A stretch of DNA of 64,000 nt. Source: Chthonomonadia bacterium (lineage in GTDB: Bacteria; Armatimonadota; HRBIN16). The notes below the pieces were generated by a model, which searched no databases, was not told the DNA's origin, and was given only the letters and a program-made list of their open reading frames with translations. Positions 37,485 to 44,324 of the stretch are shown piece after piece. Numbering within the stretch: the stretch's first letter is position 1; each line of letters begins with the position of its first letter. A program made the position numbers and the translations under genes. The stretch is taken from NCBI GenBank assembly GCA_013314755.1, contig JABUFA010000001.1:87594-151593 (forward strand), read 5' to 3'.

Positions 37485-37725
37485 ATGGCGAACCTCCTGT
37501 AGGGGCAACCCCCTGTGGTTGCCCAACCCGACGGAACAGCCCCACCTGACCTCCCTGTAGGCGGGGAGGAAAGTCTTCACCCTGACCCTCTCCCACAAGG
37601 AGAGGGCAATATGGCTGTCCCCTATCTGGAGGGCGAACCTCCTGTAGGGGCAACCCTTGTGGTTGCCCTCTAACCTCGCGCAAGGGGAGACGGCTCGGCA
37701 GGAGCCTCGCCCTCCAGCGGATAAG
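37485..37725. repeat. Intergenic cluster of modular short repeats (cluster 4)
   Basis: Spacer between the phosphohexomutase and the transporter fusion; no gene. Units: AGGGGCAACCC...GGTTGCCC at 37501-37524 and 37646-37668, a CACCTGACCTCCCTG unit near 37542-37570, TCACCCTGACCCTCTCCCAC at 37577-37606, and a reversed CGGCTCGGCAGGAGCCTCGC unit at 37691-37717. The 37646 copy is identical over 23 bases to that at 3831. Confidence 0.85.
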
Positions 37726-37764: not shown

Positions 37765-40221
37765 ATGCGCGAGCGGTTGCAACATGCCCTGCCTTGGGCG
37801 ATTTTGTTCGTGGTCCTGCTGGCGGTGATCCTCGTCTCGCTGACGCTGGCGAGCCGCCCCCCAGAGCCAACACGCAAGGTCAAACTGGTCGTATGGGGGC
37901 TGCAGCTGGGTGAGGAGAGCGCAGGTCTGCAGGCGCAGGTGGAAGAGTTCGAGCGGCGTTACCCGCATATCGAGGTCAGCCTGCTTTCCATGGGCGCGGG
38001 GCGTATGAACCCCCAGAAGCTGATGACGGCGATTGTGGGTAACGTGGCGCCGGACGTCATCTTTCAGGACAGGTTCACCATCGGGGACTGGGCATCACGC
38101 GACGCCTTCCGCCCGCTGGATGACCTCATCGCCCGCGACCGCGACAAACCCGACGGTATTCGCCCCGAAGAGTTCTACAACGCCTGCTGGCAGGAGGCGT
38201 GCTATAAGGGCAAAGTATACGCCATCCCAGCCGGCACCGACAACCGTGCGCTTTACTACAATAAACAGCTGTTCCGCGAGGCTGGGTTGGACCCCAACCG
38301 TCCGCCTCAAACGTGGGAAGAACTGTTGGAGTACGCCAAAAAGCTGACCAAACGCAACCCAGACGGCACTTACCAACGTATCGGCTTCATCCCGAATTAT
38401 GGTAACTCGTGGCTGTATCTGTATTCGTGGCAGAACGGTGGCGAGTTCATGTCGCCAGATGGACGCACCTGCACGCTCAACAACCCGCGCACGGTACAGG
38501 CGCTGGAGTGGCTGGTGAAGGTATACGACGAGCTGGGCGGCGCCAAAGCCATCAACTCCTTCGCCTCCGGGTTCCAGACGAACGAGATGGACCCCTTCCT
38601 GATTGGCAAAGTGGCGATGAAGATAGATGGGAACTGGGTGTTGAACACCATCGCCCGCTACAAGCCGGACCTGGAGTTCGGCGTTGCCCCTGCGCCCGTT
38701 CCCGCCGCGCGCCTGCGTGGAGAACCACCCTTTGAGGGACAGCCCAAATTCATCACCTGGTCAGGTGGGTTCTCCTTCGCCATTCCCCGCGGGGCGAAGC
38801 ATGTGGAAGAGGCATGGCTTTTTATCAAGTGGATGACCAGCGTAGAGAGCAATCTGATTTCCGCCCGCGCCCAGAAAGCGTGGAACGAAAGCAAAGGTCG
38901 CCCCTTCGTGCCCGGCTTGTCCGCCAATCTGAAGGTGAATGAGGCGGTGTTCAGGGAGCTCGCCCCGAAATCCGCCAAGTTCCGTGAACCCCTGCGCATG
39001 TTTATTGACCTGATGCAGGTCTCCAAGTTCCGCCCGGTGACCTTCGTGGGGCAGAGGCTATGGGACGAGCACGTGCGCGCGTTTGATATGGCAATCCTGC
39101 ACGAGATGACTCCCAAAGAGGCACTGGACGCCGGCACGCTGACGGTACAGCGCGAGCTGGACAAGGTGTTCACCCGCGAAAAGTATCCCATTCTGGACAT
39201 TCGCCTGCCGATGGCGCTGATTGCGCTGGGGCTGGGCGCGTTTGTCGTGGTGGTGGCGGTGCTGGCGCGACGGTCAGGTCCGGTGGGCAAGCTGGCACGC
39301 CCCGAAGCGATAGCGGGGTATCTGTTCGCCTCGCCGTGGATTATCGGCTTCTTCCTGTTTACTGCGGGACCGATTCTGGCGTCTATCGTGTTCAGCTTTT
39401 GCGATTACGACGTGCTCCATCCGCCACGCTACGTGGGCTTATTGAACTATAAAGAGCTGTTGACGGTAGACTTCGGCTTCCTCAGCAAGGCTTTCTACAA
39501 CGCAGGCTACCTGGCGTTTTTCGGCATCCCGCTGGGCATGACCACCGGGCTGGCGATTGCCATGCTGTTGAACACGCAGGTGCGCGGCATGAGCGGTTAC
39601 CGCACCGCCTACTACATGCCATCCATTGTGCCGGTGGTGGCGTCGGCAGTGTTGTGGGCGTGGATACTGAACGGCGACCCCAACCGCGGCATCATCAACG
39701 CGGCATGGAAAGCCACACTGGGCGAGTGGTTTGGCTGGGCACCGCCGGGCTGGTTCGGTGTGCCAGAGTGGAGCAAGCCCGGCTTAATCGTGATGGGACT
39801 GTGGGGCGCTGGCGGCGGGATGATCCTGTGGCTGGCAGGTCTGCAGGGCGTGCCCACCCACCTGTACGAAGCCGCCGAGCTGGACGGCGCCAGCAGCTGG
39901 GCAAAGTTCCGCCATGTGACCCTGCCCATGCTTTCGCCGTATATCTTCTTTAACCTCATCATGGGCACCATCCACGCCCTGCAGGAGTTTGACCGCATCT
40001 ACATTCTGGGCGGTGTGGGCGCCGGAACCAGCAGCACCGGTCCCGGCGACAGCCTGCTGGTGCCGGTGATGTATCTGTTCAACAACGCCTTCACCTATTT
40101 CAAGATGGGCTATGCTTCCGCGCTGGCGTGGATTATCTTTATCATCATCCTCGCGCTCACGTTAATTCAGTTGAAGCTGGCTCCCCGCTGGGTGCATTAC
40201 GAGGCAGAGAAGGGGAAGTAG
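37765..40221 (+). CDS. Fused ABC solute-binding protein and permease (MalE-MalF-like, CUT1 type)
   Basis: 818 residues. One N-terminal helix (LPWAILFVVLLAVILVSLTL) anchors a family 1 extracellular solute-binding domain (about 35-470: KLVVWGLQLG, QDRFTIGDWASR, IPAGTDNRALYYNKQLFREA, ITWSGGFSFAIPRGAKHVEE). A second helix near 480-500 leads into a MalF/UgpA-like permease (ASPWIIGFFLFTAGPILASI) with the ATPase-coupling EAA loop EAAELDGASSWAKFRHVTLP. Fusing binding protein and permease in one chain is rare for sugar ABC systems. No MalG-type permease or CUT1 ATPase is adjacent. Likely imports an oligosaccharide; the substrate is unknown. Confidence 0.92.
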   Translation: MRERLQHALPWAILFVVLLAVILVSLTLASRPPEPTRKVKLVVWGLQLGEESAGLQAQVEEFERRYPHIEVSLLSMGAGRMNPQKLMTAIVGNVAPDVIFQDRFTIGDWASRDAFRPLDDLIARDRDKPDGIRPEEFYNACWQEACYKGKVYAIPAGTDNRALYYNKQLFREAGLDPNRPPQTWEELLEYAKKLTKRNPDGTYQRIGFIPNYGNSWLYLYSWQNGGEFMSPDGRTCTLNNPRTVQALEWLVKVYDELGGAKAINSFASGFQTNEMDPFLIGKVAMKIDGNWVLNTIARYKPDLEFGVAPAPVPAARLRGEPPFEGQPKFITWSGGFSFAIPRGAKHVEEAWLFIKWMTSVESNLISARAQKAWNESKGRPFVPGLSANLKVNEAVFRELAPKSAKFREPLRMFIDLMQVSKFRPVTFVGQRLWDEHVRAFDMAILHEMTPKEALDAGTLTVQRELDKVFTREKYPILDIRLPMALIALGLGAFVVVVAVLARRSGPVGKLARPEAIAGYLFASPWIIGFFLFTAGPILASIVFSFCDYDVLHPPRYVGLLNYKELLTVDFGFLSKAFYNAGYLAFFGIPLGMTTGLAIAMLLNTQVRGMSGYRTAYYMPSIVPVVASAVLWAWILNGDPNRGIINAAWKATLGEWFGWAPPGWFGVPEWSKPGLIVMGLWGAGGGMILWLAGLQGVPTHLYEAAELDGASSWAKFRHVTLPMLSPYIFFNLIMGTIHALQEFDRIYILGGVGAGTSSTGPGDSLLVPVMYLFNNAFTYFKMGYASALAWIIFIIILALTLIQLKLAPRWVHYEAEKGK

Positions 40222-40224
40222 CCG

Positions 40225-40560
40225 TATTCCGGGCGTCTGCATCCTCTGTGGAGGGCGAGGCTCCCGCCGAGCCGTTATTGAGAGGCAACCTAACCCCCAG
40301 CCCCTTCCCTACGAGGAAAGGGGAGATTCTCCTCTCCCCGCGTCGGGGAGAGGTCGGGAGAGAGGTTTCCTCCCCGCCTGCGGGGAGGTCAGGTGAGGCT
40401 ATCTCGCGTCGGGGAGAGGTTGGGAGAGGGTTTTCCTCTCTGGAGGGCGAGGCTCCCGCCGAGCCGTTTTGCCCTCTCCTCGTGGGAGAGGGACAGGGTG
40501 AGGGCTGTATACCGCTACGGGCAACCACAAGGGTTGCCCCTACAAATGGCTCCTCTCCAC
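40225..40560. repeat. Intergenic cluster of modular short repeats (cluster 5)
   Basis: No gene. GAGGGCGAGGCTCCCGCCGA-type units at 40249-40274 and 40440-40466, a CCTAACCCCCAGCCCCTTCC unit near 40289-40325, CCTCTCCCCGCGTCGGGGAG at 40332-40354, a CCCCGCCTGCGGGGAGG unit near 40372-40394, CCCTCTCCTCGTGGGAGAGG extended to 40504 from 40472, and GGGCAACCACAAGGGTTGCC at 40519-40541. Confidence 0.85.
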
Positions 40561-40590
40561 CTTTGGGCAGGTCCCCTGGCGAAAAGCAGG

Positions 40591-42537
40591 ATGTTTTACC
40601 CCTGTCACGAACCCGAATCGCAAAACACTCACTGGGTGATGACAATGGTGATGGCATGTCTGCTGCTGGCTCTGTCCGCTCATACAGCGCCGCAGTTGGA
40701 ACTGCTCGGTCAACCCTGCCGGGCGAAGAACGTGCTCGCCGCGCGCTATGTGCTCGCGCCCGACGGCAGGGAGTGGTTCGTGCTGACCAATATGAACGAA
40801 ACCGCCGGCATGGAGTTGATTTTCATCGACTTTCAGCATGACACCGCTCAGGCGATTCGTGCGCCGGCAGGCTCCGGCTCGTGGGCGCTGCTGCAGGTGC
40901 CCGGCAACCGCCTGATCGTCGGAACCTTCTACGATGGCAGGTTTATGGTGTTTGACCTCCAAAAGATGCAGTTCGTGCACACCTCCGACTTTCCGGGCGA
41001 AAGCTATATCTGGAACCTCGCGCTGGGCAAAGATGGGCGCGTGTACGGCGGAACCTATCCGGGCGCGAAACTGGGCGCGCTGGACCTGAACACCTACGCA
41101 GTGGAAGATTGTGGCGCTCCTGCGCCTCCCAACATGTATCTGCGCTACGTCTCCGCCCTGCCCGATGGACGCATCCTGTGTAACTTCGGTATGGAGAAGC
41201 CCGTCAACATGATTTACGACCCCGACACTCGCAAGTTCGAAGAGGCTCCATCTTCCCTGCAGGGCATCAGCCGGGGCGTCTCGTGGAACGGCTACTTTCT
41301 GGCGGGCTCTCAGGTGCTGGACGGCAAAACCCTTCAGCCCGTATCGCCGCCCTTCCCGGTGCCCGATGGTGGTTGGGCGGTGGACGTGAACCTGACCACC
41401 GATGAGGTTCTATATCTGCGGCAGGGGAATACGGTCTACCGGTACAACCGCGGGGATGCGCAACTGCAACAGCTTGCTTCCGTGGAACTGCGGGGCGGGG
41501 GCATCTACGCGGCAACCCCACGGGGCGACCTGCTGGGCGTGCGTGGACAGGACTATTTCGTCATCAAGCCCGGCGAGACGCAGGTGAACCTGAAGCCGAT
41601 ACCCGTGGAATCCGCGCCGCGCCCAACCCTATTCCTGCGTCTGGACGACAAGGGCAGGCTGTGGGGCGGACCGCACTTCGGGCAGACGCTGTTCTGGATG
41701 GACACCCGCACCCGCCAGGTGGTGAATACCCGAACCGTGTGCAACGCTGGCGGCGAGGTGTACGACGTGACCTTCTGGAACGGCAAGGTATATGCAGTGG
41801 CTTATGCGGGCGGCGACATCGTGCAGTACGACCCGGAAGCGCCCTGGGACCAGTGGAACAACGTCAACCCGCGCGTGATTGCCAGCATTGGCGAGAAGGG
41901 CTACATCCGTCCGACGGCAGGCGTGCTGGTCGCCCCCGACGGCAAGCTGTATTCGGGATGGATGGCGAAATACGGCGTGTACGGTGGCGCGGTCGCCATC
42001 ACCGATCCGACAACAGGCGACACCGAGCTGATTGAGAACCCGCTGGGCGAACAGGCGGTGGAAGGGCTGGCGGTGGACGAAAAGTTTCTGTACATCGGCA
42101 CGTCGCTGGGCGCAAACGGCTTGCCCAACAAGAGGGGCGAATGGGCACGCTTCGGCGTGATGAACAAAAGCACCAGGCAGGTGGTCTTCCGGCACGAGTT
42201 CGAAGGGGTGTCGGGAGTGCGCACCTTCTGGCTGGACGCCCGAACGAAGCGGCTTGCACTCTCGGTGGATGGTCGCCTGCATCTGTTCGACACAGCATCC
42301 CGGCAGTTCGTCAGCCCGCCTGCGGATGCGCCGCGCGTCGGAAGCCGGATCGTGGGGCTGGGCGACGGCAAAGCGTTCTACAGCAGCGGCAGGGCGATAG
42401 TGCAGGTGGATATACAAACCGGCGCAACCGAAACGATTGCAGAGCTGCCTGCAGACGTTTCAAACGTGGCAGTAGAGCGCGATGGCACGCTGTACGCCGC
42501 CTGCGGGGCGGACATCTATCGCATCAGGAGGCAGTGA
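40591..42537 (+). CDS. Secreted beta-propeller protein of unknown function
   Basis: 648 residues. A hydrophobic leader (MACLLLALSAHTA) suggests export. The rest is repeated four-strand blades with SMP/NHL-like phrases: LALGKDGRVYGGTYPGAKLG, DVTFWNGKVYAVAYAGGDIV, LAVDEKFLYIGTSLGANG, VERDGTLYAACGADIY. About 10-12 such blades could make one or two propellers. The start is uncertain: ATG 40591 or 40639, neither with a strong ribosome site; the open frame upstream crosses repeat cluster 5. The stop overlaps the next start (TGATG). A carbohydrate-binding or lyase-like role is possible from context only. Confidence 0.75.
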   Translation: MFYPCHEPESQNTHWVMTMVMACLLLALSAHTAPQLELLGQPCRAKNVLAARYVLAPDGREWFVLTNMNETAGMELIFIDFQHDTAQAIRAPAGSGSWALLQVPGNRLIVGTFYDGRFMVFDLQKMQFVHTSDFPGESYIWNLALGKDGRVYGGTYPGAKLGALDLNTYAVEDCGAPAPPNMYLRYVSALPDGRILCNFGMEKPVNMIYDPDTRKFEEAPSSLQGISRGVSWNGYFLAGSQVLDGKTLQPVSPPFPVPDGGWAVDVNLTTDEVLYLRQGNTVYRYNRGDAQLQQLASVELRGGGIYAATPRGDLLGVRGQDYFVIKPGETQVNLKPIPVESAPRPTLFLRLDDKGRLWGGPHFGQTLFWMDTRTRQVVNTRTVCNAGGEVYDVTFWNGKVYAVAYAGGDIVQYDPEAPWDQWNNVNPRVIASIGEKGYIRPTAGVLVAPDGKLYSGWMAKYGVYGGAVAITDPTTGDTELIENPLGEQAVEGLAVDEKFLYIGTSLGANGLPNKRGEWARFGVMNKSTRQVVFRHEFEGVSGVRTFWLDARTKRLALSVDGRLHLFDTASRQFVSPPADAPRVGSRIVGLGDGKAFYSSGRAIVQVDIQTGATETIAELPADVSNVAVERDGTLYAACGADIYRIRRQ

Positions 42538-44324
42538 TGAGCGGTTTGAAAGGTCTTCCGTCCCCGCTGGGCGTGTGCTGTTTGCCTCCGCGTCCACGAA
42601 ACGCACCGCGCACGGTCATCTACGCCCACTACGTTCACGAAATCCTCGCCCATGCGGGGATATGCTACGCTCCGCTGGAGGCGCATGAAATAGAAAACGC
42701 CCTGCCTGCCCTTCGCCTGCTGGTAACGGTGGGCGACACCCCCCTGCCCGACACCACACTGAGGAAGCTGGCGCGATGGATAGAGGCGGGAGGTGCGTGG
42801 CTGGCAATCGGGGGCACGGCGGGCGCATCTGCGCTGTTCGGCGTGGAGGAAGAGCCTTCTGCGTTCGTGGGCTGGGGTTCCAGCATCGGCACGCTGGGGG
42901 AAGGCTACCTGCAGGTTGATGACACCGGTCACCCTCTGCTGGCGCATGTACGGATACCCCTGCACTTCTTCAACGGCGTGCCCGTGCGGGCAACGGAGGG
43001 CGAGGTACTCGCCAACGTGCTGGACGCTCACCAGCGGAAGACACCGAGAGCGGGCATCGTGCGGAGAAGCTTCGGCAGGGGACAGTGTCTGCTCATTGCG
43101 CCCGACGTTACGGGCACGGTGGTGCGCATCCAGCAGGGAGTGGCGGTCACGCGGGACGGCGTTTCCGCTCCAGACGGCACTGCGCCCATCTGCGACGGCA
43201 TGCTTAAAAGCAGTGACGGGGCGGTGCTGGACTGGTGGTTCGACCGCCAGCCGGTGGAAGGTGTACCCGGCTTCAGCGCGTTCCTGCACCCGGTTGCCGA
43301 CGCCTGGCGCGATATGGTGGTGCGGGCGATACTGGCTCTGGCGCAGGCGCAGGGAGTGGTGCTTCCCATTCTTTGGCTCTATCCGCGCAATCTGCCCGCA
43401 CTTGCCCACCTGTCGCACGATACCGACGGCAACGAGCCCGCTCTGGCGGAAAGGATGCTGGAGGTGGTAAGGGAGGCAGGAATCCACTCCACGTGGTGCG
43501 TAATTCCGCCCGGCTATCCCGAAGGGCTGATTGCCCGCATCCGCGAGGAGGGGCACGAGCTGGCGATGCACTTCGACGCGGTGGAAGAGGGCACCATCTG
43601 GGACGAAGGTGCGTTTCATGAGCAGTGGCGAACGCTCAAAAGGCTGTTCGGCGGCGAAGCGCCCGTGACCAACAAAAACCACTACCTGCGCTGGGAAGGC
43701 GATACGGACTTTTTCGAGTGGTGCGCACGGCGCGGCGTTCGGCTGGACCAGTCCAAGGGACCCTCCAAAACGGGCGAGGCGGGCTTCACCTTCGGCACAT
43801 GCCATCCCTACTTTCCGCTGGACCCGCAGGGCAGGCGCATCGACGTGCTGGAACTGCCCACGCACACGCAGGACCTGAACGTGTTCGCCCCCGACGCCCT
43901 GCTGGAGCCGTTGCTGAGCGCGGTGGAGCGGCATCACGGCATCCTGCACCTGCTGTTCCATCCCGCGCACGTTGCCAAACCGGGCATCGCCGAAACGATT
44001 CTAGGGGCGGTGCGCACTGCCCAGCAGAGGGGCATGGAATGGTGGACGGCGCGTCGAATCGATGAGTGGGAGCGTGCCCGCCGGCAGGTGCAATGGCGCG
44101 AGTACCGCGCAGAGGGCGACACGGTAACAATACGGTTGCACAGTGAAGTCCCCCTGCAGGAGGCGACCCTGCTGTTCAATGGAGAAGTCCTTGTGGACGA
44201 AGCGACAGACCTGCGAGCAGATCACACAGAACGATGGGGCTTCCCCATGACCGCGGTGACGCTGGACCTGCACGGGGAACGGAGCCTGCGATTGCGGCGG
44301 AGCGCACTTCCAGAGGAGGTCTGA
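42537..44324 (+). CDS. Polysaccharide-deacetylase-like protein with N-terminal GATase1-like domain
   Basis: 595 residues. The N-terminal ~270 residues look like the class I amidotransferase-like fold seen in trehalose-utilisation and similar proteins (LRLLVTVGDTPLPDT, GGAWLAIGGTAG). The C-terminal ~300 residues carry NodB-like motifs: LAHLSHDTDGNEP with the two acidic metal ligands and GHELAMHFDAVEEG with the paired histidines. It may deacylate or otherwise hydrolyse a sugar, though the motifs are divergent. ATG overlaps the propeller gene stop. Ends 3 bp before the DegT gene. No signal peptide, so cytoplasmic. Confidence 0.75.
   Translation: MSGLKGLPSPLGVCCLPPRPRNAPRTVIYAHYVHEILAHAGICYAPLEAHEIENALPALRLLVTVGDTPLPDTTLRKLARWIEAGGAWLAIGGTAGASALFGVEEEPSAFVGWGSSIGTLGEGYLQVDDTGHPLLAHVRIPLHFFNGVPVRATEGEVLANVLDAHQRKTPRAGIVRRSFGRGQCLLIAPDVTGTVVRIQQGVAVTRDGVSAPDGTAPICDGMLKSSDGAVLDWWFDRQPVEGVPGFSAFLHPVADAWRDMVVRAILALAQAQGVVLPILWLYPRNLPALAHLSHDTDGNEPALAERMLEVVREAGIHSTWCVIPPGYPEGLIARIREEGHELAMHFDAVEEGTIWDEGAFHEQWRTLKRLFGGEAPVTNKNHYLRWEGDTDFFEWCARRGVRLDQSKGPSKTGEAGFTFGTCHPYFPLDPQGRRIDVLELPTHTQDLNVFAPDALLEPLLSAVERHHGILHLLFHPAHVAKPGIAETILGAVRTAQQRGMEWWTARRIDEWERARRQVQWREYRAEGDTVTIRLHSEVPLQEATLLFNGEVLVDEATDLRADHTERWGFPMTAVTLDLHGERSLRLRRSALPEEV

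Follow-up and report, generated by a model that had tools for sequence, protein, structure and literature searches.

Among the closest described systems, the sugar importers MalEFGK2 of Escherichia coli and LpqY-SugABC of mycobacteria combine permeases of MalF- and MalG-type fold, EAA loops and a MalK-type ATPase with OB/TOBE domains, while their binding protein is a separate molecule, either periplasmic or a lipoprotein. In E. coli, MalF-P2 acts as a docking platform for this binding protein. A different arrangement was reportedly described by Licht and colleagues in 2019 in Bdellovibrio bacteriovorus, in which a single solute-binding domain is fused to MalF, and PDB entry 6FFL is the MalE domain of this bacterium, presumably from that MalE-MalF fusion. 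Its ligand is maltotriose, and the fusion is cited as transport-competent in a passage of one paper (PMC7756565). In GlnPQ and OpuA (PMC8025302, PMC11065425), too, receptor and permease form a covalent unit, joined by short linkers and transmembrane (TM) segments; these importers belong to the amino-acid and glycine-betaine families and carry at least two tethered domains per transporter. The energizing subunit can be shared: MsmX of Bacillus serves several CUT1 importers (PMC7658222), and for MsmX/MsmK the use of one unlinked MalK-type ATPase by several importers devoid of their own has been demonstrated experimentally in Firmicutes.

The gene described here lies in a 64,000-nucleotide stretch of a Chthonomonadia genome (Armatimonadota), hereafter the window. 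Together with an orphan MalG and a dimer of a shared MalK-type ATPase, its product very probably forms a CUT1 (MalFGK2-type) oligosaccharide importer. One open frame runs from ATG to TAG (Table 1), and the MalE-like domain and MalF-like permease announced for it by the initial annotation were both recovered within its 818 residues. In Pfam, SBP_bac_1 (aa 52-361, 5e-44) and SBP_bac_8 (aa 58-368, 1e-33) match the binding domain and BPD_transp_1 (aa 591-809, 1e-14) the permease, which is placed on the MalF side of CUT1 systems because its top NCBIfam matches are UgpA, MalF and GlcT. The predicted coupling loop is equally well founded, as the EAA loop LYEAAELDGASSWAKFRHVTLPML (aa 700-723) contains residues E702, A703, D707, G708, A709 and P721, invariant in an alignment of 40 homologues.

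Mean hydropathy over the same 40 homologues reveals hydrophobic helices peaking at aa 20 and aa 490, on either side of the binding domain, followed by the permease helices, with flanking linkers of approximately 8-10 residues on each side of the domain. An AlphaFold2 model built on the 40-row alignment (mean pLDDT 82.8, pTM 0.78) agrees with this layout. Hydropathy and model thus bear out the membrane anchoring proposed for the binding domain, and domain search and structure prediction both support a fusion of binding protein and permease. The anchor is a plain hydrophobic N-terminus devoid of a lipobox cysteine; in the nearest paralogue that is not fused, the N-terminus resembles that of a lipoprotein (LLLLLPACQRRQ). 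The binding domain has the fold of a sugar-binding protein, its closest folds in Foldseek being CpMnBP1 (4r9f/4r9g, TM-score on target 0.84-0.85), and the sugar-binding proteins returned include the Bdellovibrio MalE domain 6ffl. As in Bdellovibrio, a CUT1 MalE-type domain and MalF share one polypeptide, giving one tethered receptor domain per importer, but the two proteins are distant (E about 1e-15, 22% identity over the binding domain), and the fusion described here is known from sequence and model.

Table 1. Features of the fusion gene and its flanks, in window positions
Feature	Position	Strand	Length, sequence or basis
SBP-MalF fusion: signal-anchor helix, SBP_bac_1 domain, TM helix and MalF-type CUT1 permease	37765..40221	+	818 aa
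N-terminal membrane anchor helix, aa 2-29	37768..37851	+	hydropathy of 40 homologues, AlphaFold2 model
Extracytoplasmic sugar-binding domain, aa 38-467	37876..39165	+	Pfam, phmmer vs PDB, Foldseek
Second TM helix, aa 480-503, about 10 linker residues after the binding domain	39202..39273	+	hydropathy, AlphaFold2 model
MalF/UgpA-type permease core, aa 520-818	39322..40218	+	Pfam, NCBIfam, AlphaFold2 model
EAA coupling loop, aa 700-725, LYEAAELDGASSWAKFRHVTLPMLSP	39862..39939	+	sequence and invariant residues; predicted ATPase contact
Dispersed short repeats, left cluster (right cluster in inverted orientation)	37503..37717	.	
Dispersed short repeats, right cluster (left cluster in inverted orientation)	40249..40544	.	

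The fusion is real, vertically conserved and under purifying selection. The whole single frame is present in eight of the ten genus genomes at 93-95% identity; G006 (89% complete) retains a C-terminal fragment (97% identity), and no orthologous match to the fusion was obtained in G007 (77% complete). Between genus members, dN/dS is 0.026-0.040 for the whole frame, 0.019-0.029 for the binding domain, 0.012-0.029 for the permease and 0.06-0.11 for the linker or joint region, with synonymous changes far outnumbering nonsynonymous ones in both halves. Of 101 phylum genomes searched, 59 contain an orthologue (E below 1e-180), usually as one frame, the exceptions being four genomes with one internal TAG each (G067, G082, G024 and G075), one split into two overlapping frames (G013) and one partial copy (G074). 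A frameshift or stop between the domains, or close relatives with two separate genes, had been named as the findings that could overturn the fusion, and neither did so; among close relatives, none encodes the two domains in separate genes. As MAGs are the majority of Armatimonadota assemblies, two genes could in principle have been joined by an assembly or sequencing error, through a lost stop or a frameshift. However, eight independent assemblies of the genus share this frame, which also recurs across dozens of families, single-contig genomes included, and dN/dS is low across the joint itself; we therefore reject this explanation, whose likelihood is negligible. Among the 40 aligned members, mean pairwise identity is 55% for the binding domain and 62% for the permease, and the conservation of the binding domain suggests a fixed ligand.

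The absence of a MalG or MalK-type ATPase gene beside the fusion, noted initially, holds within the window, but not for MalG genome-wide. An orphan malG is located at C66:56571-57887 (+) in the same genome (G000) and on the same contig, ~68 kb from the fusion (C66:125358-127811) and ~31 kb outside the window. Beyond the genus, 41 of 51 relatives encode MalG directly downstream of the fusion on the same strand, whereas within the genus it occupies a separate locus in all seven fusion-bearing genomes where a cognate MalG was found. In G004 (98% complete), the fusion is present and no cognate MalG was found, possibly owing to an assembly gap. Fusion and MalG are also far apart in the single-contig genomes G086 and G092, so malG has probably been displaced more than once.

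The closest paralogues of the fusion in the genome (51% identity for the permease, 39% for the binding protein) belong to a split operon on C70/C73 encoding a lipoprotein binding protein, MalF and MalG. The fusion might accordingly borrow the MalG of this system and provide an alternative receptor-MalF half for mixed transporters; at locus L073, the fusion gene is followed by this operon after about 1.6 kb, and the lack of a cognate MalG in G004 would fit. In a tree of the MalG core, however, the four genus orphans sampled (G000, G001, G006 and G008) are nested within the fusion-partner clade (support 100/97 for partners plus orphans), and the orphan has the same characteristic insert as the partner MalGs in its first periplasmic loop; neither applies to the C70/C73 MalG. 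With the orphan found and placed in the tree, borrowing from C70/C73 is unlikely and no longer favoured. By descent, the C66 orphan can thus be shown to be the cognate MalG, the predicted heterodimeric partner of the fusion; malG was displaced in the genus, and the transporter would not be incomplete. More generally, where one window lacks an expected neighbour, the gene may have moved elsewhere and the transporter need not be incomplete.

Within the window, the fusion has no sugar-catabolic genes among its neighbours and no adjoining MalG, as might be expected of a binding protein-permease remnant that signals sugar occupancy as a sensor or regulatory receptor and transports nothing. The invariant EAA residues, the very strong constraint on the permease half and the co-conservation of MalG, mostly directly downstream in relatives, all speak against such a role, which we regard as very improbable.

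The model of the orphan MalG has additional helices at the N-terminus and, at aa 144-209, a beta domain with a pLDDT of about 90, the permease core being weaker (block means about 52-82). These helices and the loop beta domain are absent from the MalG of E. coli and from its LpqY-SugABC counterpart. Foldseek with the whole model returned ABC importer permeases only, with MalG first, and yielded no identification of the beta domain. The partner MalGs L083 and L090 are devoid of this domain although their fusions belong to the same clade; it is therefore not essential for docking, and we rejected the idea that the fusion strictly requires it.

The ATPase was sought throughout the G000 genome, where a single UgpC-type protein, encoded at C5:10042-11139, matches above the curated cut-off (485 bits, the next match reaching 157 bits) and carries OB_MalK and TOBE domains. 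Since the genome contains one UgpC-type ATPase and about eight CUT1 MalF-type genes, this stand-alone ATPase is probably common to all its sugar systems, by analogy with MsmX/MsmK, for which sharing was demonstrated directly and not, as here, deduced from gene counts.

In the importer that we propose, the binding protein is part of MalF itself, placed behind an N-terminal signal-anchor helix and ahead of the canonical permease helices. The anchored domain would bind an oligosaccharide, close over the sugar and dock on the channel formed by the fusion and MalG without diffusing away, the short linkers holding it near the channel mouth. Driven by ATP, the shared ATPase would then close and, coupled via the two EAA loops, open the channel outward. 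For docking, the platform may be the beta domain that MalG carries in its first periplasmic loop, in a role comparable to that of MalF-P2 in E. coli. Each channel would have a single covalent receptor in place of the usual excess of free or lipidated receptor, and we infer a 1:1 ratio because receptor and channel are covalently linked. In this the importer would resemble GlnPQ and OpuA, although a heterodimeric CUT1 system would carry one tethered domain where these carry two or more. Its assembly, stoichiometry, direction of transport and substrate class are all proposed on the basis of sequence. As to the substrate, the nearest solved binding protein, CpMnBP1, has mannobiose and mannotriose as ligands and is about 26% identical to the fusion domain, which makes a similar mannooligosaccharide a lead and no assignment.

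Gene context was uninformative in this respect, and a substrate assignment from it was rejected. The neighbours of the fusion in the window match GT9 transferases, a phosphohexomutase, a beta-propeller-like protein and a DegT aminotransferase in Pfam, and among 52 loci with long flanks, conserved neighbours beyond malG were not widely found. Large proteins devoid of a clear Pfam family are encoded downstream (42141-44324 and 40393-42537), one weakly polysaccharide-deacetylase-like and one beta-propeller-like. The gene is bracketed by the two repeat clusters of Table 1, which include an arm pair of 26 nt (37643-37668 and 40519-40544), inverted and 100% complementary. The repeat patterns are nearly absent elsewhere in the window; allowing one mismatch, one of them has 13 copies in the genome and none in a reversed control. 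That recombination between such repeats helped to separate the fusion from malG is speculation.

The initial annotation considered fusions of this kind rare for CUT1 systems. This wants qualifying, both because the Bdellovibrio CUT1 fusion is known and because the present one is common in Armatimonadota. A wider scan of contig collections yielded 78 fusion loci, nearly all from Armatimonadota, the other labels, taken from record titles, being two Poribacteria and one Abditibacterium. In maximum-likelihood trees of each half, the 29 sampled members form one group (support 99/98 for the permease and 99/99 for the binding domain), that excludes unfused proteins and other fusions. As the fusion is monophyletic in both trees, the simplest reading is that the two halves were fused once, long ago, and have descended together since. 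The two loci labelled Candidatus Poribacteria (L134 and L135) belong to this clade, either because the fusion was transferred horizontally or because the MAGs are misassigned; in L134, the partner MalG has a different and larger loop insert.

In open-licence papers, we found no report of this fusion for Armatimonadota, and in the Fimbriimonas genome paper, which gives numbers of ABC genes, the passages retrieved mention no fusion. While a CUT1 fusion of binding protein and MalF is itself known, the phylum-wide clade, the MalG partner with a loop domain and the displaced malG seem to be new. A tethered CUT1 receptor fixes the stoichiometry and makes docking intramolecular, the reverse of the usual excess of free receptor. 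An ancient, strongly conserved and phylum-wide clade, whose MalG often has an extra periplasmic domain, thereby offers a comparative system for the roles of receptor dissociation and excess. It is conceivable, if rather doubtful, that tethered-receptor CUT1 import is a phylum-level habit of Armatimonadota, with several lineages of such fusions, some relying on a loop-enlarged MalG as docking platform instead of MalF-P2 and one having zinc-ribbon-like segments in its receptor.

The remaining fusions of binding protein and MalF ("fusB") do not form one group, with at least two label changes in the permease tree and at least three in the binding-domain tree on starred branches. Within Armatimonadota, several lines appear to have gained such a fusion or kept one. 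Further examples outside the group of the window fusion are found at L180-L189 (genomes G011, G020, G027, G033, G038, G040 and G069). The genome of the window also encodes a second, distant fusion of 931 aa (G000:C25:11057-13849; L193:4058-6850, - strand), the binding domain of which is broken by a zinc-ribbon-like stretch with several CxxC pairs and weak Pfam matches only. It is present in nearly all genus genomes, and 24 of the 41 genomes searched match it at E<1e-60, mostly through the C-terminal part outside the genus. The adjoining MalG (L021:1480-3303, - strand, G000:C25) has 608 aa and a very long periplasmic loop, which contains a GH42 beta-galactosidase-like segment (Pfam 2e-6).
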